From contig CAJFQZ010000004.1 in NCBI GenBank assembly GCA_904419285.1, positions 53,489 through 117,488 on the forward strand: 64,000 bases of DNA, read 5' to 3'. Position numbers and translations under genes: made by a program. The notes beneath the pieces were generated by a model. It was not told the DNA's origin and ran no database searches. It worked only from the letters and a program-made list of their open reading frames with translations. This DNA comes from Lachnospiraceae bacterium UBA1818 (GTDB taxonomy: Bacteria; Bacillota; Clostridia; Lachnospirales; Lachnospiraceae). Shown here in pieces: positions 16,056 through 36,129 of this stretch (its first letter is position 1; each line of letters starts with the position of its first letter).

Positions 16056-16166
16056 GGCAGCTTTTGTCAAGGTCTAAAAGTTTATAAAATTTTCGGGCGT
16101 TTCGAATATCTTAAAGGCAGAGTGAGAATCATTCTAAGTAGAAAATGGCTTAGGAGGATTCTTACA

Positions 16167-16949
16167 ATGATGGTAAATAAGGTTGAACTGTGCGGGGTAA
16201 ACACATCAAAGCTTCCGCTCCTGAAGGAGGAGGAAAAGGAAGCGCTGTTTGCCCGGGTTCAGGCAGGGGACGAAGAGGCGCGGGAAGAGTACATCAAGGG
16301 AAATCTGAGGCTGGTCTTAAGTGTGATCAAGCGATTTGACGGGAGCAATGAGAATGCGGACGATCTGTTCCAGATCGGATGCGTGGGACTGATGAAGGCG
16401 GTGGATCATTTCGATCCCACAAGGATGGTCAAGTTCTCCACCTACGCGGTGCCCATGATCATAGGGGAGATCCGCAGATATTTAAGGGACAACAGTTCTA
16501 TCCGGGTGAGCAGATCCTTAAGAGATACCGCGTATAAAGCGATCTACGCCAAGGAGGGGTATATCCGCCGTCATATGAAGGAGCCTACCGTGCAGGAGAT
16601 CGCAGATGAGATCGGCATTTCCAAGGAGGATGTAGTGTTCGCTCTCGATGCTATCCAGGCTCCCATGAGCCTGCATGAACCGGTGTACAGTGACGGAGGC
16701 GACGCCCTGTATGTGATGGACCAGGTGAGCGACAAGAAAAACAAGGAGGAGAACTGGGTCGAGGAGCTTTCTCTTGAGGCTGCGATGGAGCGGCTGAACG
16801 AGCGGGAGAGATACATCATAACGCTCCGCTTTTTTGAGGGAAAGACGCAGATGGAAGTGGCGGAGCAGATCAACATCTCCCAGGCGCAGGTGAGCCGTCT
16901 GGAGAAAAATGCACTGAAGGTCATGCGGCAGTATCTTCTCGGTGAGTAG
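16167..16949 (+). CDS. sigG: RNA polymerase sporulation sigma factor SigG
   Basis: A 260-residue sigma-70 protein whose start (MMVNKVELCGVNTSKLPLLK) matches the SigG N-terminus of Bacillus closely. Region 2 contains NLRLVLSVIKRF, DLFQIGCVGLMKAVD and KFSTYAVPMIIGEIRRYLRD; region 4 ends with AEQINISQAQVSRLEK. SigG directs late forespore transcription. AGGAGG at 16152-16157 lies 9 bp before the ATG at 16167, so an in-frame ATG at 16122 is rejected. It is separated from sigE by the beta-CASP gene. The 111-bp upstream gap has no promoter I could assign to sigma-F or sigma-G with confidence. Confidence 0.96.
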   Translation: MMVNKVELCGVNTSKLPLLKEEEKEALFARVQAGDEEAREEYIKGNLRLVLSVIKRFDGSNENADDLFQIGCVGLMKAVDHFDPTRMVKFSTYAVPMIIGEIRRYLRDNSSIRVSRSLRDTAYKAIYAKEGYIRRHMKEPTVQEIADEIGISKEDVVFALDAIQAPMSLHEPVYSDGGDALYVMDQVSDKKNKEENWVEELSLEAAMERLNERERYIITLRFFEGKTQMEVAEQINISQAQVSRLEKNALKVMRQYLLGE

Positions 16950-17034
16950 AAGGAAAGCGGAGGAAGGTATTGAAATTTTCAGAGCTTCATACTATGATAT
17001 GGGTGAAATACAAAAGAAGATTATGGAGGAAGCC

Positions 17035-17691
17035 ATGTATAAAGCATGTATATTTGATCTTGACGGAACTTTGACGAATACACTGGATTCTCTGACATAT
17101 TCAGTTAATGAGACCATGAAGGAGATCGGCCTTCCGCAGATCACGGAAGATCAGTGCCGGATGTTTGTCGGCAACGGCGCAAAAGTCCTCATCGAGAAGA
17201 CTCTCCGCGCGGGAGGAGATACATCTCTTGCACACTTTGATGAGGCGATGGCAGCATATCAGAGGATCTTTGACGTAAACTGCACATATCATGTATCACC
17301 TTATCCCGGGATTGCGGAGATGCTGGGAGAGATGAAGGCTATGGGACTTAAGCTGGGAGTGCTCTCAAATAAGCCTGACAGACAGGCAGTGCACGTTGTC
17401 CGGGCAATATTCGGCGAAAACGTATTTGACCGGGTGCAGGGACAGCGGGAAGGCACTCCGAGAAAGCCGGATCCGACGGCAGCGCTCCAGATCGCATCCT
17501 CGTTCGGCGCTTCTCCGGAGGAGACGGTCTACATCGGGGATTCAGAGGTGGATGCAGCTACCGGCAGAGCAGCCGGGATGAAGACGATCCTTGTCGCCTG
17601 GGGATTCCGCGGAGCAGAAGCCCTCAGAGCCGGAGGAGCGGAATGCATTGTTGATTCAACAGATGAGATCATGGATATCATAAGAGGATAA
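17035..17691 (+). CDS. HAD superfamily hydrolase, phosphoglycolate phosphatase-like
   Basis: A 218-residue HAD subfamily IA enzyme. Motif I is CIFDLDGTLTNTLDS with the nucleophile and acid Asp pair, motif II is GVLSNKP, motif III the lysine of RKPDPTA, and motif IV VYIGDSEVDAATG. A helical cap lies between motifs I and II. It probably dephosphorylates a small phosphoester such as phosphoglycolate or a pyrophosphate; the substrate cannot be read from sequence. GGAGGA just before the ATG at 17035 supports this start over an upstream in-frame ATG at 16942. It forms a pair with the small gene 12 bp downstream. Confidence 0.9.
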   Translation: MYKACIFDLDGTLTNTLDSLTYSVNETMKEIGLPQITEDQCRMFVGNGAKVLIEKTLRAGGDTSLAHFDEAMAAYQRIFDVNCTYHVSPYPGIAEMLGEMKAMGLKLGVLSNKPDRQAVHVVRAIFGENVFDRVQGQREGTPRKPDPTAALQIASSFGASPEETVYIGDSEVDAATGRAAGMKTILVAWGFRGAEALRAGGAECIVDSTDEIMDIIRG

Positions 17692-17703
17692 GGAGGGAGC
17701 GGG

Positions 17704-17967
17704 ATGAACGGTTACAGTGAAGAATGTCTGAAGACTTTCCTGAAGGAGCAGGGACGGCTGTTTGACGAACCTGTGGCAGAGACCCTGGAGGAGGCGGAAG
17801 CTTTTCTCGAAGACTGTATGGCAGTGATAGTGGATTCTCTGGCTGAGGTGAGGGAATACTTTGAGGAGAGCGGCGCGGATGTGGATCACATGACAGAAGA
17901 AGAGCTGGAGGATGCATCCGAGGTGTTTGCGCTCCCGGACGGGACTTATCTGATCGTAGAGGGATGA
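17704..17967 (+). CDS. Small acidic protein, unknown function
   Basis: An 87-residue, strongly acidic, helical protein with GAGGGAG before the ATG. Its middle (residues about 22-75) is Glu/Asp-rich with leucines at helical spacing, and it ends in a short hydrophobic strand, TYLIVEG. There is no signal peptide or membrane helix, so it is cytoplasmic. I recognise no family. The 12-bp distance to the HAD gene and the terminator at 18032 make it the last gene of that transcript. Confidence 0.6.
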   Translation: MNGYSEECLKTFLKEQGRLFDEPVAETLEEAEAFLEDCMAVIVDSLAEVREYFEESGADVDHMTEEELEDASEVFALPDGTYLIVEG

Positions 17968-26422: not shown

Positions 26423-27388
26423 ATGTCAGGGGAAGAACAATGGGCATGGCAGGTGATCGACGAGGTGGAGAAGGCCGTGGTCGGGAAAAGAGAGATCCTG
26501 ACGAAGATCATGACGGCGATTCTTGCAGGAGGACACATTTTAATAGAAGATATTCCCGGTACGGGAAAGACCACCATGGCCCTGGCATTTTCCAGAGCTA
26601 TGGGGCTGGAGGTGAAGCGCGTGCAGTTTACACCGGACGTGCTGCCGTCAGATCTGACGGGTTTTACGATCTTTCAGAGAGAGACAGGGCAGTTTGTCTA
26701 TCAGCCGGGAGCAGTGATGTGCAATCTGCTGCTTGCGGATGAGATCAACAGGACGTCACCAAAGACGCAGTCTGCGCTGCTCGAGGTCATGGAAGAGCAT
26801 CAGGTGACGGTTGACGGGGTAACGAGAAAGACCGGAGACCCGTTTATTGTCCTTGCGACAGAGAATCCGGTCGGATCCGCCGGAACACAGCTTCTGCCCG
26901 AATCTCAGCTGGATCGTTTTATGATCTGTGTCAGCATGGGCTATCCTACACTGGAGGAAGAGGTCAGGATCCTGAGAAGGAGTCAGGGAAGTATGCAGTC
27001 AGGCGAACGGATCACAGACAGTGTTCAGCCGATCCTGGACGCGCCGCTGCTCCTCAGACTCAGGAAGAGCGCGGGAGAGGTTTATGTACATGAACTGATC
27101 TACCACTATATCGCGGAGCTTGCGCAGGCGACCAGACAAAATGAATGGGTCGAACTGGGACTGAGCCCGAGAGGGACTGTCGCCCTCACGGCAATGGCGA
27201 AAGCGCGCGCATATCTGAAGGGGCGTGCATTTGTGATCCCTTCCGATGTGGCGGATGTTTTCCCGGATGTGGCATCCCACAGGCTGATCCTGAACATGAA
27301 GGCGAAGGTTGGCCGCGTCAGGATGGACGAACTGATACGGCAGGTGGCCGAGAGCGTGCCTCAGCCGTCTGTAAAAAAGAGGCGCTAG
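26423..27388 (+). CDS. MoxR-family AAA+ ATPase
   Basis: A 321-residue AAA+ ATPase. Walker A is EDIPGTGKTTMA (about residue 42), Walker B LLLADEINRTSPKTQSALLE, sensor 1 VLATENPVGSAGTQLLPESQ with the arginine finger region LDRF, and a C-terminal lid with LGLSPRGTVAL. MoxR proteins act as chaperone-like motors, usually encoded with DUF58 proteins; one starts 3 bp downstream. With the transglutaminase gene this gives the common MoxR-DUF58-TGase trio. Confidence 0.95.
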   Translation: MSGEEQWAWQVIDEVEKAVVGKREILTKIMTAILAGGHILIEDIPGTGKTTMALAFSRAMGLEVKRVQFTPDVLPSDLTGFTIFQRETGQFVYQPGAVMCNLLLADEINRTSPKTQSALLEVMEEHQVTVDGVTRKTGDPFIVLATENPVGSAGTQLLPESQLDRFMICVSMGYPTLEEEVRILRRSQGSMQSGERITDSVQPILDAPLLLRLRKSAGEVYVHELIYHYIAELAQATRQNEWVELGLSPRGTVALTAMAKARAYLKGRAFVIPSDVADVFPDVASHRLILNMKAKVGRVRMDELIRQVAESVPQPSVKKRR

Positions 27389-27391
27389 AAA

Positions 27392-28447
27392 ATGTGGAAG
27401 AGAATAACTGGTTATCTTGCAGTACTGATCCTGGTCATATACCTTTATTTTATGTATGACGAGACAGTGATCTCAGGAATACTTGTTCTGACAGTCCTCT
27501 ATCCGATATGCGCAGGGACCTTTCTTCTGCTGGTCAGAAAAAAAATCAGCGCGGAGCTGGACAGGGTGCCTCCTGTGGGAGAAAAGGGAAAACGCATCCG
27601 CTCCGGGGCAACGGTCAGAAGCAGTTCCCGAACAGTTTCCGTCCGCTGTGAAGTACTGATCTCAGTGAGGAACAGGATTTCCGGAAGGAAGATAAGGCGG
27701 AGGTATCAGGGAGTCCTTGCGCCGGGACAGACAGAGACATTCTGGTGTGAATCTTCGTCAGAATTCTGCGGAAATATGGAAGTGGAGCTGGAGTCTGTCA
27801 GAATCTGCGACATGTTCGGGATTTTCTATATAAATCGTTCTGTGCGCAGCAGGGCGTCTGTGAAGATCATGCCTGAATTGCGGCTCATGCCTCTGGAGAT
27901 CACCAGGGCAGTCAGAGAGTTCCGGACAGACTCGGACGAATACTCCGGGGAGAAGAAGGGGGATGATCCGTCCGAACTTTTTCAGGTCCGGGAATACCGT
28001 GTCCAGGACTCTGTAAGGGATATCCACTGGAAGCTGAGCGCAAAAGAAGAGGAGCTTATGGTAAAGGAACACGGACTTCCCCTCGGATGCAGCGTGCTCG
28101 TGTGGATCGATCTGCCGGAAAAGGAGACGTCGGCAGCAGGATTTTCGAAACTCCTGGAGACAGCTGCATCTCTGTCGGTCTCTCTTGCGGAGCAGAGGTG
28201 CATTCATCTTGCAGCCTGGTATGAAGAAAAGAATGAAAGGATCGGAATGCGGCGGGTCAAGGATGAGAAGTCCGCCTGGGAGATGATCTGGCAGCTGACC
28301 GAGATCGAACCGTATCGGGATCCGGCCAGGAAGCAGATCTGTTTCGAAGATACATTCCGGGGGCATGAATTTGCTGCCACGGTGACCATAGACGGACAGG
28401 GGGTCCTCAGGAAGAATGGAGAGATCCCTGAACTACTCCGGCTGTGA
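27392..28447 (+). CDS. DUF58 domain-containing membrane protein
   Basis: A 351-residue protein with two N-terminal hydrophobic helices (residues about 5-22 and 28-48), a beta-rich extracytoplasmic or cytoplasmic segment, and the DUF58 core near residues 195-230. There the motif VREYRVQDSVRDIHWKLSAK corresponds to the family's 'R.Y..GD..R.I.W...Ar'. DUF58 is a von Willebrand-factor-A-like domain thought to be a MoxR client. The expected GD pair is QD here. It starts 3 bp after moxR and is followed by the transglutaminase gene, so the three should be co-transcribed. Confidence 0.88.
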   Translation: MWKRITGYLAVLILVIYLYFMYDETVISGILVLTVLYPICAGTFLLLVRKKISAELDRVPPVGEKGKRIRSGATVRSSSRTVSVRCEVLISVRNRISGRKIRRRYQGVLAPGQTETFWCESSSEFCGNMEVELESVRICDMFGIFYINRSVRSRASVKIMPELRLMPLEITRAVREFRTDSDEYSGEKKGDDPSELFQVREYRVQDSVRDIHWKLSAKEEELMVKEHGLPLGCSVLVWIDLPEKETSAAGFSKLLETAASLSVSLAEQRCIHLAAWYEEKNERIGMRRVKDEKSAWEMIWQLTEIEPYRDPARKQICFEDTFRGHEFAATVTIDGQGVLRKNGEIPELLRL

Positions 28448-28540
28448 ACAGGCAGGGATGCGGGCGGATGAAGGGAAAATGCAGAAGAGAAAGACGGATG
28501 CGGTCAGAGCAGGCGGTGTTATGACATGGAGAGGATAAGG

Positions 28541-30625
28541 ATGCGGAAAAAGAAGAAAATGTTATCCGGCGTTCGTTCCGGAATCACAGTGTACGGCGGC
28601 CTGCCGGGGAAAAACAGGGCAGGACAGCAGGACGGGAGTGCATGGGTTCTGAATGCGGTCAGCGTCTGTCTTCTTGCCGCAGCATGGTGGAATGCTGTCC
28701 TTTCAGTTTTCCCCTTCGATATCAGCAGAGCCTGGCTGTACGGATGCCTTGCGGCAATTGCAGCGGCGCTGAACCTTCTGCACAGAAAAGCGGGCAGGCG
28801 CACTGCGGTCTGTATTTTTCTTTTGTCAGGCGTCCTGATCGCAGCCGGATGCCTCGTGGCTTCGTATGTTCCGCTGCAGGCAGGGGCACGGACAGTGGGA
28901 GCGGCAGCAGCGGCTGCCACGATCCCGCTGCTTGAATCGTGGACGCTGGTGAAAAAGACCGGCCGTGGAAAGGCGGCTGCCGGACTCCTGATCCCGGTTC
29001 CGCTGATCGCCGCCGCCTGCGCTGGCAGTTTCCAGCCGGCAGTCCCGTGCTGGCTTCTTCTGATCGCCGGAGGATTCTATTTTGCGTCGGGCAGCGGCAT
29101 GGCCGGACATAGGAGCGGCATCAGCGCATGGATCCGGTCCTGCGCTGTCCTGGCGGTCCTCTGCCTGGCTGCTGTCCTGTCTGCTTCGGCAGGGCGTCTG
29201 CTGGACATCGGGCGGAGTGCTCCGGGAGGATATTATCAGGAGGGAAGAGACTGGTTCAGCACGGGGATCGCAGAACGGCTGGAGCGGATGGTTTCGGGAC
29301 TGACACCGGATGAGACCGGGGAGGAAACGGACTCTTCCGTGGAGAATCCGCAGGCAGAACCTGAGAATGGGCAGGAAGTACAGGAAGAGATCCCGGAACG
29401 AGAGACGGACCAGGGAATGCCGGAGGAAGACGGCGGGATGGAGGATCTGAACAGCCTTTCCAGATATACTCCCACAGATGCTGCAGTGGGCGATGTTACA
29501 GTGGACGAAAGGCCCAGCGGCACAGTTTATGTGCCGGAGCATTACGGTATAACCTATACCGGGAACGCCTGGATCGATATGGAAGATTACGGCCAGAGAA
29601 ACTGGGAGACTGTATATGGAAGCGGACAATATGTGGATACTTCGGCGCCGGAAACACTTCTGGAAGCCTGCCAGAGCTATCCGTCAGATCTGTCTGAGCT
29701 GGAGGGACTGATCGGCAGCGGATGGAATACAGGTTCCATTGAGTCAGTGGGCAGGGAGATCGACAGAGAATTTGCCCTGCGCGCGGTATATGACACAGCG
29801 CCGGGGGCAACTCCTCAGGATGAAGATTTCGTCGAATATTTCCTGTTTGAGAGAGGGCGGGGATTCTGTGTCCATTTTGCGTCTGCCGCTGTGCTTTTGT
29901 ATCGGATGAGCGGATATCCGGCGAGATATGTGAGCGGCTATGCTGTGCCCGCGTCAGCGTTCCGGGAGACGGAGAACGGGGAGTATCAGGCACAGATCGA
30001 CGGGACCATGGGACATGCCTGGGCTCAGGTATATGATGGGCAGACGGGAGTGTGGCTCAATGAAGAACATACTCCGTCGAGAGCCGCTTCAAGTACAGAG
30101 CAGAACACGGATATCCCTCAGCCGGACAGCGGGGGGAGAGAGAATGCGGAGCCGGAGGGACAGAACGACATTGCCAGAGCCGCGGAACGGCTGCTCACAG
30201 GTCTCCTTATACTGGCGGCTGTGATCCTGACGGTCCTCGTGCAGGCGGGTATCCGCCGTAGAAGGCTGAGACGGAAATTCTCAAGAAAAAGGAACGGTGA
30301 GGGGATCATCTGTATGTATGACAGCATTCTGAGCACCTCGAAATTTATCGGCTGCAGCAGCGGAAAGATGCCGGATGAGGAGCTGACCGGACGGCTCAGC
30401 GAAGAATTCCCCGAGATCACTGCCAGAGAATGGAAATGGATGGAAGAGCGGACGCTGGAGAGTATGTTTTATCATCTTGAAAAAGAGGAAGATGAGTGGA
30501 AGAAAATGGCGGAGCTGTACTGCAGATTCCAGTGGGCTGCGCGCGGCAGAATGAACCGCAGAAAGAGATGGATGTACGATTATATCAGCTGCTGCGGATG
30601 TGTATACAAGTATACGGACAAATGA
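28541..30625 (+). CDS. Transglutaminase-like membrane protein
   Basis: A 694-residue protein from the ATG at 28541, chosen because GGAGAGG ends 6 bp upstream; an ATG at 28526 is possible. About six transmembrane helices occupy residues 30-220. An extracellular region follows with an acidic Glu/Pro linker (about 255-300), and then a transglutaminase core: Cys443 in GRGFCVHFASA and His492 in MGHAWAQVYDG. The usual WvpvDPTP Asp is replaced in WLNEEHTPS (Glu508/Glu509). A last transmembrane helix (about 555-575) leads to a cytoplasmic tail of about 115 residues. It probably modifies or cleaves surface proteins; the substrate is unknown. Third gene of the MoxR-DUF58 unit. Confidence 0.9.
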   Translation: MRKKKKMLSGVRSGITVYGGLPGKNRAGQQDGSAWVLNAVSVCLLAAAWWNAVLSVFPFDISRAWLYGCLAAIAAALNLLHRKAGRRTAVCIFLLSGVLIAAGCLVASYVPLQAGARTVGAAAAAATIPLLESWTLVKKTGRGKAAAGLLIPVPLIAAACAGSFQPAVPCWLLLIAGGFYFASGSGMAGHRSGISAWIRSCAVLAVLCLAAVLSASAGRLLDIGRSAPGGYYQEGRDWFSTGIAERLERMVSGLTPDETGEETDSSVENPQAEPENGQEVQEEIPERETDQGMPEEDGGMEDLNSLSRYTPTDAAVGDVTVDERPSGTVYVPEHYGITYTGNAWIDMEDYGQRNWETVYGSGQYVDTSAPETLLEACQSYPSDLSELEGLIGSGWNTGSIESVGREIDREFALRAVYDTAPGATPQDEDFVEYFLFERGRGFCVHFASAAVLLYRMSGYPARYVSGYAVPASAFRETENGEYQAQIDGTMGHAWAQVYDGQTGVWLNEEHTPSRAASSTEQNTDIPQPDSGGRENAEPEGQNDIARAAERLLTGLLILAAVILTVLVQAGIRRRRLRRKFSRKRNGEGIICMYDSILSTSKFIGCSSGKMPDEELTGRLSEEFPEITAREWKWMEERTLESMFYHLEKEEDEWKKMAELYCRFQWAARGRMNRRKRWMYDYISCCGCVYKYTDK

Positions 30626-30645: not shown

Positions 30646-30675
30646 TTGCATGTTACAGAGCAATGATGATATAAT
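30646..30675 (+). promoter_or_regulatory. Promoter of the DUF5717-DUF5716-TPR operon
   Basis: TTGCAT at 30646-30651, 18-bp spacer, TATAAT at 30670-30675, about 60 bp before the first gene. This suggests the three genes are controlled separately from the MoxR unit. Confidence 0.6.
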
Positions 30676-30734
30676 TCATAGTAGCGTTCTTTTGCCGTTT
30701 GGGCAGGAACAAGTATTGTGAGTAGGTGACGGAT

Positions 30735-33700
30735 TTGAAGAATAAGATCAAACGATTTGCAAAAGGGGATTTCCACATTCCCCAGCCGGATATAATATTC
30801 CCGGAGACCCACATTGTAATGCGGGTCGGGGAAGGCGAAGAATATAAAGGAAGCTTTTCTCTCCAGAATCAGGGAGAGGGCACGATAAGAGGACTGGTCT
30901 ATCCGTCTTCCTACCGTGTGCGCTGCGCGGAACAGGGCTTTGACGGGAATCCGGTGAACATATCATATACATATGACGGCCGGGGACTTGTACCGGGGCA
31001 TGTGGAGCACGGAAAGTTTACGATCGTCTGCAACGGGGGCGAATACGATATCGCATTTACCGCGATCATTGAGAAGCCGTTTGTCATGACTTCTTACGGA
31101 AAGGTGCAGAGCCTTGAGGATTTCAAGAAGCTGGCGTTCCGCGATGCGGCGGAGGCGGAGAAGCTGTTCCGTTCAAGAGATTTCTATGAGATCCTGAAAT
31201 ATGAAGATGTGAGGATACAGGCTCTCTACGACAATATGCGCAAGTGGGAACTGGACCAGCACGGGCTGGAAGAATTCCTTGTCGGCTGCAAGCAGAAAGA
31301 GAAGATCTTCCTCACTCTTGAGGAAGAGAGCCGCGCGTTCATGTCTTTAACGGAGGCGCGCAAGGAGACGTTTACGATCAAAAAGAATACATGGGGATAT
31401 CTGGAGATCGATGTGCGCACTATAGGCGATTTTCTCTATGTAGAACATACCCATATCACAACAGAAGAATTTATAGGAAATTCCTACCGCCTGGAGTATT
31501 TTATCACGGTGGAGAATCTGCATGCCGGGAGTAATTTCGGACAGGTGATCCTTGAGACGCCGTATGAGACTCTTACGTATGAAGTCGTGGTCGAGAAAAA
31601 TGTCAGCCGCGATGAGGAACGGAGGGAGAATCGGAAGGAGTTTGCCGGCATTCTGCGGGGATATCTAAATTATGAAGGGGGAAGGACAGATCTTCAGACA
31701 TGGTCGGAGGACGCTCTGAAGCGGATCGGCCGTCTGCGGGAGGCGGACAGCAAGAATGAGTTCTATCTCCTGATCCACGCCCATATCTGTCTGATCGGCG
31801 GAAGGCCAAATGAAGCGAAGATGCTTCTGGAGTCTTACAATTATAACCGCTTTGCGATCGGCAGGGATGTGGAACTGAGTTCTTATTACCTCTATCTGAC
31901 AACGCTGCTCAGCAACGATACGCTTGCACAGCGCAGGGTCGCGGAGGAACTGTCGCGGTCGTTCATGAAACATCCGGACAGCTGGCGGATTCTCTGCATG
32001 CTGGTGGAAGTGGACTCGGAATATAAAATCTACAGCGAAAGGCTCCGGGCTCTGGAAAAGCAGTTCTATGAGGAACGCTCCCACAGTATCTGGTTTTATC
32101 TGCAGGCGTTCCGCTGTTTCCGGGAGAAGAGCTCTTCCCTGAAAAAGCTGGGGATGTTTGAGGTGAGGGTCCTGCTGTTCGCGGTAAAATATAAGCTGAT
32201 GACAAAGGAACTGGCATTGTATACAGCCAATCTGGCGAGCCAGATGAAAGTGTTCGACAAACATCTGTACCAGGTGCTTGTCCTTGCCTATGACATGTAT
32301 GAGGAATCGATGATCCTCACGGCGATCTGCACACTGCTCATCAAGGGAAACTGTATGGACGGCTGCTATTTCAAATGGTACGAGAAAGCGGTGGAATCTG
32401 AGCTTAAGATCGCCCAGCTCTATGAATACTATATGGCGGCTGCGCGTCCGGATCAGTTCCACAAGCCGCTCCCGCGTTCTGTATACCTGTATTTCATGCA
32501 TGGGAATTCGCTGGATTATCATAAATGTGCCTTCCTTTATTCAAATCTGATCACTTATGAGGATGAGACAAGCGAGATCTACGCCCACTACAGGGACGAG
32601 ATGGAGGCGTTTGCGTGGAGCCAGCTGGAACGCAGGAATGTGGATGAACAGCTCCGGATCATTTACAAGAGATTTCTTGTGGAGTCGGCCATGAATACGG
32701 AGAGGATCCGGGCACTTTACGATATCTGCCATGCATACTGGATCACTACGAAGGTGCCCAATATGAAATATGTCCATGTGATCGCCGAGGATGGAACGAT
32801 TACACAGAAGGCGCCGTACCTGGAAAATGGTACAAGAGTATTCTTGTATGCAAAGACGGACCGGCTTGTGTGGGAGGCTAAGGATGGCAGACATTATACC
32901 GACTCCATCCCATATGAGAGTAAAAGGCTGTTCTATGAGCTGCGCTATATGGACTTGTGCAGAAAATATCTGAACGGGCTGATGAAAAACAGGCACAATG
33001 AGGAAAAGGAAGAACTTACTCTTGACATCGTAAAAGAGAAGGGACTGGAGAATTATCCTGAGGAAGAGATCTTCAGCCTGTGTACGAAGAATATCCGCGA
33101 GAATAATTATGAAAACGATGATTTCCTTACATATGTCTGCTTTGACCTGTTTAAAAAGCATCAGTATGACAAGGTGATCCTCACTTATCTTGCAAACTAT
33201 TACTGCGGAGCAACGCTTGACATGAAGAGGCTCTGGAGGGAAGCGCGGGATTATGAGGTGCATACACATAAACTTACGGAGCGGATCCTGACCCAGATGC
33301 TGTTTTCGGAGGAGCTTTTCCAGGAAGCCCAGATCTTCGAGGAATACTATGAAGAAGGTGCATATTACCGCCTCCAGCAGGCTTATCTCGCATATGTGTC
33401 ACGAGAATACGTGGTGGAGGAGCGGAAGATCGGGCGGAGCGTGATCGATATCATCTGCCGGGAATATGAAAAAGGAGAGACAACCATCGACATCTGCAAG
33501 CTGGCAGTCCTCAAATACTATTCCACAAGAGAATACAGCTCGCAGACCCGGAAGACACTGAAGAAATTCCTTCAGGAGCTCTGCGGAAAGCAGATCTATT
33601 TCCCGTTCTTCCTGGCATATGAAAAGGACTGGCTGATCGAGCTTCAGCTCTGGGACAAGGTGCTGATCGAGTACAAAGGACAGAAGGGCAGCCGGGTCAT

Positions 33701-34028
33701 GCTGTACTATCAGCTTCAGAAAGGCGGACAGGAGCCGGCGGACTATTCAACAGAAGTGCTCAGCCCGATGTATGAAAATCTCTATGTAAAGAAGTTCGTC
33801 CTCTTTGCAAATGAGAAGCTGAGATACTATTTTAAGGAGACAATAGACGGCAACTCCTACCGGAGCGACAAAGAGACCTGCGTCAGGGATGTCACAGAAG
33901 GGGAGCCGGGAAGATACGGGAGGATCAACGATATCCTTCTGGAAAAGGATAAGAACGAACGCGAAAAGAAGATGCGGGATTACGCGCTGGAAGACGCAGT
34001 GGCGGTCCACATGTTCGAGCAGTATTAA
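30735..34028 (+). CDS. DUF5717-like giant protein: beta-sandwich domains plus helical repeats
   Basis: A protein of 1097 residues from the TTG at 30735, which has AGGTGA 5 bp upstream; a GTG at 30726 lacks a site. There is no signal peptide or membrane helix, so it should be cytoplasmic. Two beta-sandwich-like domains occupy residues about 20-105 (IVMRVGEGEEYKGSFSLQNQ) and about 210-295 (GYLEIDVRTIGDFLYVE). The remaining 800 residues are helical with paired amphipathic helices typical of TPR/SEL1-like solenoids and many Tyr, Glu, Arg and Lys residues. I associate it with the DUF5717 family of Lachnospiraceae. Only 15 bp separate it from the Hsp70-like gene. The function is unknown; a scaffold role is inferred. 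Confidence 0.75.
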   Translation: MKNKIKRFAKGDFHIPQPDIIFPETHIVMRVGEGEEYKGSFSLQNQGEGTIRGLVYPSSYRVRCAEQGFDGNPVNISYTYDGRGLVPGHVEHGKFTIVCNGGEYDIAFTAIIEKPFVMTSYGKVQSLEDFKKLAFRDAAEAEKLFRSRDFYEILKYEDVRIQALYDNMRKWELDQHGLEEFLVGCKQKEKIFLTLEEESRAFMSLTEARKETFTIKKNTWGYLEIDVRTIGDFLYVEHTHITTEEFIGNSYRLEYFITVENLHAGSNFGQVILETPYETLTYEVVVEKNVSRDEERRENRKEFAGILRGYLNYEGGRTDLQTWSEDALKRIGRLREADSKNEFYLLIHAHICLIGGRPNEAKMLLESYNYNRFAIGRDVELSSYYLYLTTLLSNDTLAQRRVAEELSRSFMKHPDSWRILCMLVEVDSEYKIYSERLRALEKQFYEERSHSIWFYLQAFRCFREKSSSLKKLGMFEVRVLLFAVKYKLMTKELALYTANLASQMKVFDKHLYQVLVLAYDMYEESMILTAICTLLIKGNCMDGCYFKWYEKAVESELKIAQLYEYYMAAARPDQFHKPLPRSVYLYFMHGNSLDYHKCAFLYSNLITYEDETSEIYAHYRDEMEAFAWSQLERRNVDEQLRIIYKRFLVESAMNTERIRALYDICHAYWITTKVPNMKYVHVIAEDGTITQKAPYLENGTRVFLYAKTDRLVWEAKDGRHYTDSIPYESKRLFYELRYMDLCRKYLNGLMKNRHNEEKEELTLDIVKEKGLENYPEEEIFSLCTKNIRENNYENDDFLTYVCFDLFKKHQYDKVILTYLANYYCGATLDMKRLWREARDYEVHTHKLTERILTQMLFSEELFQEAQIFEEYYEEGAYYRLQQAYLAYVSREYVVEERKIGRSVIDIICREYEKGETTIDICKLAVLKYYSTREYSSQTRKTLKKFLQELCGKQIYFPFFLAYEKDWLIELQLWDKVLIEYKGQKGSRVMLYYQLQKGGQEPADYSTEVLSPMYENLYVKKFVLFANEKLRYYFKETIDGNSYRSDKETCVRDVTEGEPGRYGRINDILLEKDKNEREKKMRDYALEDAVAVHMFEQY

Positions 34029-34043
34029 GGAGGACAGCTTTCC

Positions 34044-35327
34044 ATGGGACAAGGCAATATAATAGGATATGAGATAAATGAAAAGACCTGCCAGATCAGT
34101 TTTTACAATGAGCGGCAGATGGAGCCGGAGACCCTGGAGGTGGATGCGGACAATTACCAGATCCCTCTGATCATCGGGAAGCTGAGAGATACATGGGCAT
34201 ACGGAAAGGAAGCTAAAAGGCTCGTATCGATCAAAGAAGGCTACACTGTGACAAGGCTTCTGAGCAGGAGCCTTGCCGGAGACAAGGTCGAGCTTGGAGA
34301 AGAGACCTACGATGCGGTATGGCTGCTGTCCCGGTTTATCGAGATGTCGCTGCAGTCCTTTCCACAGATCGACGGGATCGTGTTTACTGTCCCGTCACTG
34401 ACCGAGGAACTGGCGCATCTGCTCCGCGGGATCGCGGTGCGTATGGAGATAGACAAAAGGCACATTTTCATCCAGGACTACAAAGAGAGTTTCTGTAATT
34501 ATCTGTTTTATCAGCCGAAAGAGCTGTGGCAGTACGATGCGGCGCTGTTCTGCTGTGACAGAAATGAGATCAAAGCATACATGCTCCGCAGGCTGAAACC
34601 CGGGCTCGGCGGAGGAAAGACGACTTTTGTGACAGTGGATGAGGTCGCCAGCGCTCACATGAAGGAACTTGCCATGGTCTATCCGGTGCTCAACGAGGAT
34701 AAGGCGAAGGAGGCGGACGCCATGTTCTCCAGATTTATTGAGAGTGTATTCGACAAGCGGATCGTCTCGTCTGTTTTCCTTACGGGAGAAGGATTTGAGA
34801 ACAACTGGTATCCCAGATCTCTCAGGGTGCTCTGCAACGGGCGCCGCGCGTTCATCGGAAATAATCTGTACAGCAAGGGCGCGTGCTATACGGCTTACAG
34901 GAAGCTGTACATGCACATTGAGAATCCGGTCTACCTGTCGGAGGACAAACTGACCGATCAGATCACAGTCAATATGCGGGTGGACGGACAGGAGATGTGG
35001 TATCCGATCGTATCCTGGGGAACACACTGGTACGAGTCCAACAACCAGTGGGAGGTGCTCATGGAGGATGTGGAAGACATTGAGTTCCATGTGGAGTCAC
35101 TGATCCAGGGGACGATGAGGACAGAGAAGATCTCGCTGGACAAGTTCCCGAAAAGGGCAGAGTATTCCATGCGCCTGCAGATGGAGACTCTTTTCCTCGA
35201 CGAGAAAACCTGTAAGATCACAGTGAAGGACGTAGGATTCGGAGACTTTTTCCTGCCAACGGATTTTCAGGCAGAAAAGATCATTCACTTAGGAGGAAAT
35301 GATGGGAAATTTAATTCTTTGTCATGA
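34044..35327 (+). CDS. DUF5716-like protein with a divergent Hsp70/actin-type fold
   Basis: A 427-residue protein, AAGGAGGA upstream of the ATG. The order of elements follows an Hsp70: a phosphate-1-like strand GNIIGYEINEKTCQISFYN, then YGKEAKRLVS, then IVFTVPSLTEELAHLLRG with IFIQDYKES, then a second-lobe strand AALFCCDRNEIKAYML, an adenosine-motif-like VFLTGEGFENNW, and the KGACYTAYRK helix. A C-terminal beta-rich part ends in ITVKDVGFGDFFLPTD, like an Hsp70 substrate-binding domain. The acidic and Gly-rich catalytic residues are largely missing, so ATPase activity is doubtful. The fold call is inference. The end overlaps the next gene by 26 bp, implying coupled translation. Confidence 0.7.
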   Translation: MGQGNIIGYEINEKTCQISFYNERQMEPETLEVDADNYQIPLIIGKLRDTWAYGKEAKRLVSIKEGYTVTRLLSRSLAGDKVELGEETYDAVWLLSRFIEMSLQSFPQIDGIVFTVPSLTEELAHLLRGIAVRMEIDKRHIFIQDYKESFCNYLFYQPKELWQYDAALFCCDRNEIKAYMLRRLKPGLGGGKTTFVTVDEVASAHMKELAMVYPVLNEDKAKEADAMFSRFIESVFDKRIVSSVFLTGEGFENNWYPRSLRVLCNGRRAFIGNNLYSKGACYTAYRKLYMHIENPVYLSEDKLTDQITVNMRVDGQEMWYPIVSWGTHWYESNNQWEVLMEDVEDIEFHVESLIQGTMRTEKISLDKFPKRAEYSMRLQMETLFLDEKTCKITVKDVGFGDFFLPTDFQAEKIIHLGGNDGKFNSLS

Positions 35328-36069
35328 TAAGCATGCGACACATCCGTATGAGATCACAAGGATCCACTGCAGGATATTTACGATCGAGGAGCTGTGCTTC
35401 TATCTGTGCAACAATCTCTATCTGATAGACTATACGATCATGAATGAACAGCTCTGCACCTGGATCGAAGAAGAGATCGGCATGAAGGAGCTGGCTGACA
35501 GCCTCAGAGATGTGCTCCGCCTGAGGGGGTCCGTGGAAAAGTTCGTGCTGACCATCCTGAAAGCGTCGAGGATCTACAGAGAGCCGCAGATGATACATAT
35601 TCAGAATGTGCTTGAGCATCTGAAGAACCAGAGGGACATCGAGAGACAGAAATACAAGGGAGACAATCTTCTTGAGAGCGGCGAGATCGAGGAGGCCATC
35701 CTCGTGTACCAGTCGATCCTGAATCAGGAGAAAGACGAGAGCGTGGATGAAAAGTTCTACGGCAAGATCTATGCAGGGCTCGGCGCTGCCTACGGACGCC
35801 TTTTCCTTTATCAGGAATCGGCCCGCATGTACGACAGAGCTTATCAGATCTGCGAGGACAAGGCGCTTCTGAAGCCTTATCTGTACGCATCCTACAAGTA
35901 CATGTCGCTGGAAGAATATCATATTCTGATCACAAAGCATGAGGATTATATGGAAGTGAACGCGCAGATGCGGCGGGAGATCGATGAGATCAAAGAAAAT
36001 CTCCAGGTCGAGCCGACGCCGGTCCTGCTGGAAAAATGGAAGCGGCAGCACCGCAGGAGCCACTCCTGA
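35302..36069 (+). CDS. TPR-like protein, third gene of the Hsp70-like operon
   Basis: A 255-residue cytoplasmic protein. The ATG at 35302 lies 5 bp after AGGAGG (35291-35296); the adjacent ATG at 35299 is too close. The N-terminal 110 residues are an uncharacterised mixed domain (LILCHDKHATHPYEITRIHC, CFYLCNNLYLIDY). Residues about 125-215 form two or three TPR-like helical pairs, with GDNLLESGEIEEAILVYQSI and YAGLGAAYGRLFLYQESARM. The C-terminus is basic. It overlaps the end of the DUF5716-like gene by 26 bp, so expression is coupled. It may be the adaptor of this three-protein set. Confidence 0.75.
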   Translation: MGNLILCHDKHATHPYEITRIHCRIFTIEELCFYLCNNLYLIDYTIMNEQLCTWIEEEIGMKELADSLRDVLRLRGSVEKFVLTILKASRIYREPQMIHIQNVLEHLKNQRDIERQKYKGDNLLESGEIEEAILVYQSILNQEKDESVDEKFYGKIYAGLGAAYGRLFLYQESARMYDRAYQICEDKALLKPYLYASYKYMSLEEYHILITKHEDYMEVNAQMRREIDEIKENLQVEPTPVLLEKWKRQHRRSHS

Positions 36070-36095: not shown

Positions 36096-36129
36096 ACTGC
36101 CGGCGGGCTCTGCCTGCCGGCAGTTTTTC
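36096..36129 (+). terminator. Intrinsic terminator after the TPR gene
   Basis: A 9-bp perfect GC-rich stem (36096-36104 with 36116-36124) and an 11-nt loop, followed by TTTTT. Confidence 0.88.

Follow-up and report, generated by a model that had tools for sequence, protein, structure and literature searches.

The 64,000-nucleotide stretch of Lachnospiraceae bacterium UBA1818 analysed here (contig CAJFQZ010000004.1; hereafter the window) contains three closely packed genes encoding a giant DUF5717 protein, a DUF5716 protein and a tetratricopeptide repeat (TPR) protein, and it is this three-gene set and its counterparts in related genomes that we describe (Table 1). The genes proved genuine, lie side by side and are under purifying selection, and by profile comparison the middle protein is derived from Hsp70 over almost its entire length and no longer has the ATPase motifs.

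Table 1. Features of the three-gene locus in window coordinates
Feature	Position	Strand	Details
Promoter-like site, extended -10	30646..30675	+	TTGCAT-N18-TATAAT, TG before the -10; from sequence
Giant DUF5717 protein	30735..34028	+	1097 aa from TTG; Pfam DUF5717_N and DUF5717
DUF5716 protein	34044..35327	+	427 aa; Pfam DUF5716_C
TPR protein	35302..36069	+	255 aa from ATG 35302 (256 from ATG 35299)
Intrinsic-terminator-like hairpin, end of the unit	36096..36124	+	13 pairs, 10 of them G-C, followed by a T run

The three-gene set and its conservation

The giant and DUF5716 genes are separated by 15 bp, and the DUF5716 and TPR genes overlap by 26 bp, or by 29 bp if the latter starts at ATG 35299; the reading-frame positions, the lengths of the two larger proteins and this spacing all agree with an earlier first-pass annotation of the window. 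The TTG start of the giant is preferred because it fits the family N-terminus ‘MKxxIxxLxKGxF’ (an alternative GTG at 30726 would give 1100 aa), and ATG 35302 is favoured for the TPR protein because it fits the family start ‘MGxLILC’. The first-pass annotation had also assigned the unit its own promoter, and the promoter-like site upstream is consistent with this. The site is missing from a general promoter scan because its first hexamer is weak. Of the 20 upstream regions compared, from the window and 19 relatives, 17 contain a similar site by a rule defined after the window site had been seen, versus 9.65% of 2000 random 150-base stretches. Of six comparisons, three yielded a ratio of nonsynonymous to synonymous substitution rates (dN/dS), of 0.02–0.07, with a dS of ∼3 and hence near saturation; dS is saturated in the other three.

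Pfam lists both DUF5716 and DUF5717 as families of unknown function, and the window proteins match them with E-values of 8.6e-210 (PF18984) and 2.7e-101 (PF18983) for the giant and 1.1e-101 (PF18980) for the DUF5716 protein. The N-terminal region of the giant may be a beta-sandwich and the remainder a helical, TPR-like solenoid; the best PDB match of the giant profile is a weak one, to the TPR protein PA4667 (E 0.049). The third protein had been described as TPR-like, which holds at the level of its family: the Pfam TPR matches of the window protein are weak and below cut-offs, and the family profile matches TPR structures with a best E of 1e-39 and contains tandem TPRs. A scan of the three window proteins against NCBIfam gave nothing above cut-off, and no signal peptide was evident in any of them on inspection by eye. 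The first ∼110 residues of the TPR protein (ILC...EELCYY...; window 35302–35640) precede the TPRs and are conserved across the family, and by eye they look similar in the sister-family protein; Pfam returned no match to this region in either the window protein or the homologue from the sister-family locus L052.

DUF5716_C and DUF5717 each occur in 244 of the 250 genomes searched in the window's family, with both present in 243, only one in two (genomes that are 67% and 68% complete) and neither in five. PF18980 matches are single in 239 of the 244 genomes and double in five. Wider draws placed DUF5716_C in 4 of 299 genomes of the phylum, all from the window's family, and in 89 of 196 genomes of the order, of which 22 belong to the window's family. 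The giant, DUF5716 and TPR genes are neighbours in that order in all 20 relatives fetched, in which open reading frames (ORFs) were chosen by a longest-non-overlapping rule that can hide DUF5716, as in L067. The giant and DUF5716 genes are adjacent in 64 of the 65 pairs compared among the matches listed (of 244). The expected co-occurrence is therefore borne out and the genes are not routinely found apart, the one real exception seen being G337 (5% contamination), in which the giant lies on a different contig from the DUF5716, TPR and coiled-coil genes. All four genes are kept in G337 (L144, L145) although the giant is apart. The two contigs of G307, which is outside the 65 pairs, reflect a contig break. 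The three-gene form also occurs at L060, in genome G702, which is assigned to a different family and may be misbinned (5% contamination) or represent a true second case.

The claim of a three-gene system stands as far as the adjacent trio is concerned, but the set is not closed, since a fourth gene, whose coiled-coil product has what look by eye like two membrane helices, is found in 107 of the 250 genomes. The gene starts 739–1235 bases past the DUF5716 match, on the same strand, in 64 of 64 cases compared among the matches listed (of 107), a spacing that leaves room for the TPR gene. No match to it was found in the window's genome or in 143 of the 250 family genomes overall.

Directly upstream of the set in the window lie genes for a MoxR ATPase, a DUF58 protein and a transglutaminase (26423–30625), with the MoxR protein just above the bpMoxR cut-off (27.7 vs 27 bits). 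This trio was rejected as part of the system, as BLAST found it in none of the stretches fetched from the 20 relatives; the L084 and L085 stretches contain MoxR matches at 23–24% identity only.

DUF5716 and the multi-Hsp70 cluster of sister families

A second qualification of the three-gene system is that it corresponds to part of a larger cluster in sister families, with the order g-a-X-b-c-d-t: giant, Hsp70a, GrpE-domain protein X, DUF5716 orthologue b, Hsp70c, Hsp70d (with a vWA domain) and TPR protein. The intact Hsp70s of this cluster provide the comparison for the DUF5716 protein, which the first-pass annotation had likened to Hsp70 and suspected of having lost its ATPase activity. Using hhalign, the DUF5716 profile of the window's family aligns with the profile of intact Hsp70c over 411 columns (99.7%, E 3e-25) and with that of b over 419 columns (100%, E 1.7e-49); the corresponding values for the TPR and giant profiles, used as controls, are 0.7% and 0.2%. 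When searched against the PDB, the family profile matches DnaK in the first lobe only (E 5.7e-5), and the b profile matches DnaK across columns 22–500 (E 3.4e-22). The trees likewise split b and the family DUF5716 proteins from the other Hsp70s with a branch support of 100. The alignment of DUF5716 with Hsp70c reaches close to the C-terminus of both (the L052 Hsp70c covers positions 1–489 of the 599-position Pfam HSP70 model), and the C-terminal region of DUF5716 aligns with the substrate-binding beta region of Hsp70c. An alpha-helical lid (SBD-alpha) appears to be lacking in DUF5716, judged by length (427 aa) and coverage only.

The phosphate-1 motif (DxGTT), the catalytic lysine and the phosphate-2 motif (GGGTxD) are each found in 0 of 38 DUF5716 sequences of the window's family (4 of 42 having been dropped for a doubtful frame or end, and some of the remaining 38 being near-identical) and in 0 of 44 b sequences. 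The same motifs are found in 36 of 36 Hsp70c, 32 of 32 Hsp70d and 37–39 of 40 Hsp70a sequences, two of the latter being truncated. A site-by-site motif table of a smaller set indicates that the AKxxLS region of the nucleotide lobe is also missing in 20 members of the DUF5716 family. These comparisons support the earlier suggestion as far as Hsp70 ancestry and the loss of ATPase motifs are concerned, and since none of the 44 b sequences retains a motif, the large cluster already contains b in its dead form. Whether b arose from Hsp70c is only a guess, because the Hsp70c profile ranks b above own DnaK in L049, L050 and L047 (206–248 vs 195 bits) and below it in L052, L058 and L051.

Scanning genome contigs for the GrpE-like segment of X identified 48 loci, whose sources include Defluviitaleaceae, Vallitaleaceae and ‘Candidatus Epulonipiscium’ bins, and Defluviitalea phaphyphila is a cultured carrier of the large cluster. 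NCBI taxonomy places both Defluviitalea and Lachnospiraceae in Lachnospirales. With unmatched ORFs ignored and gene labels taken from best BLAST hits, each of the 48 named loci forms an uninterrupted part of g-a-X-b-c-d-t and 22 of them are complete, many contigs being short and one piece consisting of a single gene. Many sister-family genomes in the order draw also contain two adjacent DUF5716_C matches, in frames of ∼520 and ∼550 aa. Of the 33 sister-family loci in which a giant is labelled, 25 have it split into two genes or ORFs (∼390 + ∼900 aa); it is a single long gene in the window's family and apparently also in L087, L130 and L131. The cluster is closed by the longer TPR homologue (∼386 aa), and in three sister-family loci a coiled-coil homologue comes after the TPR gene.

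Within L052, Pfam identifies DUF5717 in two genes, HSP70 in Hsp70a (E 6.8e-70), HSP70 together with vWA in Hsp70d and several TPRs in the last gene, whose product is 386 aa long. Both DUF5716_C (E 4.8e-18) and HSP70 (E 5.7e-12) are matched by the single protein b, and Hsp70c, which matches HSP70 at E 1.4e-60, also matches DUF5716_C (E 6.9e-11). X itself gave nothing above cut-off in L052. Its C-terminal part forms a GrpE domain: all eight members scanned match PF01025, with a best E of 3.7e-15, and the PDB matches are GrpE chains (4ani, E 4.4e-6). The vWA metal-site motif (DxTxS) is found in 32 of 32 Hsp70d sequences. Hsp70a ends in D-x-L-Y in 24 of 40 sequences (e.g. L088:6747-8423), an ending that recalls the EEVD-type tails which dock TPR proteins.

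ATPase members of the cluster in the window's family

The family of the window appears to keep only those members of the cluster that lack an intact ATPase. In the order draw X is found in 68 of 196 genomes and in none of the 22 from the window's family; outside the family 64 genomes contain both X and DUF5716_C, three DUF5716_C only and four X only. These last four (G589, G610, G667 and G677) have no DUF5716_C match, and b may be lost in them or too divergent. Searching all 250 family genomes also returned no GrpE-like X, the 135 genomes with weak matches (E of at least 1.3e-9; frames of 91–360 aa, mostly ∼180–290) looking as would be expected of housekeeping GrpE. Hsp70d was found in 0 of 150 family genomes, with a local control only (1154–1375 bits for true Hsp70d, 297 for own DnaK), and none of the 61 family genomes searched for Hsp70a contained it, a search that recovered all 10 sister-family positive controls.

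The window's own genome encodes two DnaK-type Hsp70s and a weaker match that is MreB-type by eye, none of them at the three-gene locus. The two DnaK-type genes (G000:C7:8250-9898 and 16067-17788; L062, L063, L065) lie ∼6–8 kb apart, and matches to the first fall in two frames close to its start, a sign of a possible frameshift or misassembly. These two Hsp70s and the missing GrpE-like protein would also suit a different role, in which DUF5716 is an Hsp110-like co-chaperone of the housekeeping DnaK, acting in exchange or client holding, with the giant and TPR proteins as client adaptors. Hsp70 relatives are established as exchange factors (Hsp110/Sse1), and DUF5716 resembles Hsp110 in being an Hsp70 descendant with an altered ATPase function. 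However, Hsp110 is longer, binds ATP and has an extended alpha domain, whereas the DUF5716 protein has 427 residues, lacks the nucleotide motifs and the AKxxLS region and is accompanied by DUF5717 and TPR partners, and we consider such a role credible but unlikely.

As to the direction of change, loss in the window's family is the simpler guess because the large form is spread over many coded families of the order. It is therefore likely, if not settled, that this family lost the ATPase members rather than that its cousins gained them.

Proposed function and relation to known systems

We favor the idea that the locus is the non-ATPase core of an Hsp70-type machine, probably a scaffold or holdase related to the multi-Hsp70 cluster. 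The large form would have a scaffold composed of the giant, the dead Hsp70 and the TPR protein, on which Hsp70a, Hsp70c and Hsp70d bind and release clients with ATP and are reset by the GrpE-like protein; the vWA domain could act as an adaptor and the coiled-coil protein, where present, as a membrane tether. In the family of the window this scaffold would operate without ATPases of its own, with the dead Hsp70 as a fixed subunit holding a partner or client constitutively via its substrate-binding-like domain, and turnover, if any, would fall to the housekeeping DnaK and GrpE. More tentatively, and with somewhat less than even confidence, we suggest that the family runs an ATP-free remnant of the four-Hsp70 cluster, having discarded three intact Hsp70s and the GrpE-like factor and kept the already-dead Hsp70, the giant solenoid and the TPR protein, so that the conserved heart of the system may be the dead subunit and not the enzymes. 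The observation made in the first-pass annotation is confirmed and its interpretation partly supported; the physical complex, the beta-sandwich domains and the chaperone function are putative.

Several observations weigh against this proposal. Three of the five family genomes with neither DUF are at least 93% complete, and the set is therefore not universally essential. The large cluster is itself incomplete in places, as L106, L110, L120 and L133 have unrelated or opposite-strand genes after b and L053 has no d after c, and no J-domain protein is present among the eight L052 cluster proteins scanned. The absence of Hsp70c from the window's family rests on the PF18980 match counts and the Hsp70 list of the window's own genome, no dedicated search for it having been made. 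Finally, the tree test does not reject placing b in one clade (p-AU 0.169), and the origin of the small form from the large one is not settled by the tree.

In an alternative model the set is no longer a chaperone and has become a static structure, for instance on the inner side of the membrane or within a division or envelope complex, in which DUF5716 serves as a rigid block. In favor of such a model the giant and TPR proteins are scaffold-like, no ATPase member was found in the family, and the coiled-coil protein with its apparent membrane helices adjoins the set in every case compared. However, most family genomes, the window's included, gave no match to that protein, DUF5716 retains a substrate-binding-like region, and the neighbors recognised by eye in 20 relatives are purine, tRNA-synthetase and transport genes. 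We therefore regard a static assembly as improbable.

Our preferred reading, the non-ATPase core of an Hsp70-type machine, can be compared with the DnaK/GrpE machine, as the large cluster combines intact Hsp70s (a, c and d) with a GrpE-domain protein and DUF5716 aligns with Hsp70c nearly end to end. It differs in that a, b and c are mostly 456–572 aa long and apparently lack the alpha lid, that d has a vWA domain after its Hsp70 part, that the GrpE domain stands at the end of a protein of ∼500–650 aa, that no J-domain gene was seen in L052, and that the window's family yielded no ATPase member.

The nearest published theme we found is the HSP70/GrpE group of the GAP1-N2 GTPase systems, which is described by Kaur et al. 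(2020, PMC7159879) as a HSP70, GrpE and FNIII-TPR theme, with HSP70, GrpE, a second Hsp70 and a repeat or TPR protein encoded together. This likeness to a published conflict theme raises the question of a defence or conflict system, as do partial matches to the PADLOC candidate models PDC-M61B or PDC-M71B (E 4.6e-5 to 8e-9) in four (a, c, d and t) of the seven proteins compared from the L052 cluster. However, these matches cover regions in which any Hsp70 or TPR protein might score, and the three window proteins have no match in PADLOC-DB 2.0.0 at E 0.001. The published systems are centred on a GTPase and GAP1, for neither of which there is a Pfam match in any of the three proteins of the window or the eight scanned from the L052 cluster, and their second Hsp70 lacks the peptide-binding domain, whereas DUF5716 keeps that domain and has lost the ATP motifs. 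In contrast to variable systems and sporadic defence islands, the DUF5716/DUF5717 set is present in nearly all family genomes, and we disfavor a defence role as hardly probable at all.

A further parallel is CnuD of the CoCoNuT systems, an Hsp70-like unit that is linked to HEAT-like helical repeats, has degenerate ATP motifs and is proposed to bind RNA (PMC11090510); by analogy, DUF5716 could bind RNA or ribosomes. CoCoNuTs are restriction operons with a McrB-type GTPase and nucleases, however, and Pfam recognised no McrB GTPase, nuclease or other CoCoNuT part in the three window and eight L052 proteins. As DUF5716 is also mostly single-copy and near-constant in its presence, RNA or ribosome binding appears very improbable.

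Neither DUF family appears to have been described in this context: within the open-licence literature covered DUF5717 is not named and DUF5716 is named once, apparently in a study on another subject, and the titles and abstracts of the matches listed contain nothing recognisable on the large cluster or on a vWA-Hsp70. The abstract of a 2021 review on bacterial Hsp70s (PMC8215388) names three of them, DnaK, HscA and HscC, and a term search of the main text gave no instance of Willebrand, vWA, Clostridi-, Firmicutes or paralog.

The scaffold or holdase reading predicts a DUF5716 protein that does not bind ATP, a stable complex of it with the DUF5717 and TPR proteins, and a deletion phenotype in species that can be cultured. 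If it is correct, two families of unknown function would become parts of an Hsp70-derived assembly, and bacteria would gain a chaperone cluster beyond the DnaK, HscA and HscC named in that abstract (PMC8215388). If the family of the window did lose the enzymes, a dead Hsp70 that has outlived three intact paralogues would constitute a natural experiment on the Hsp70 fold without ATP.

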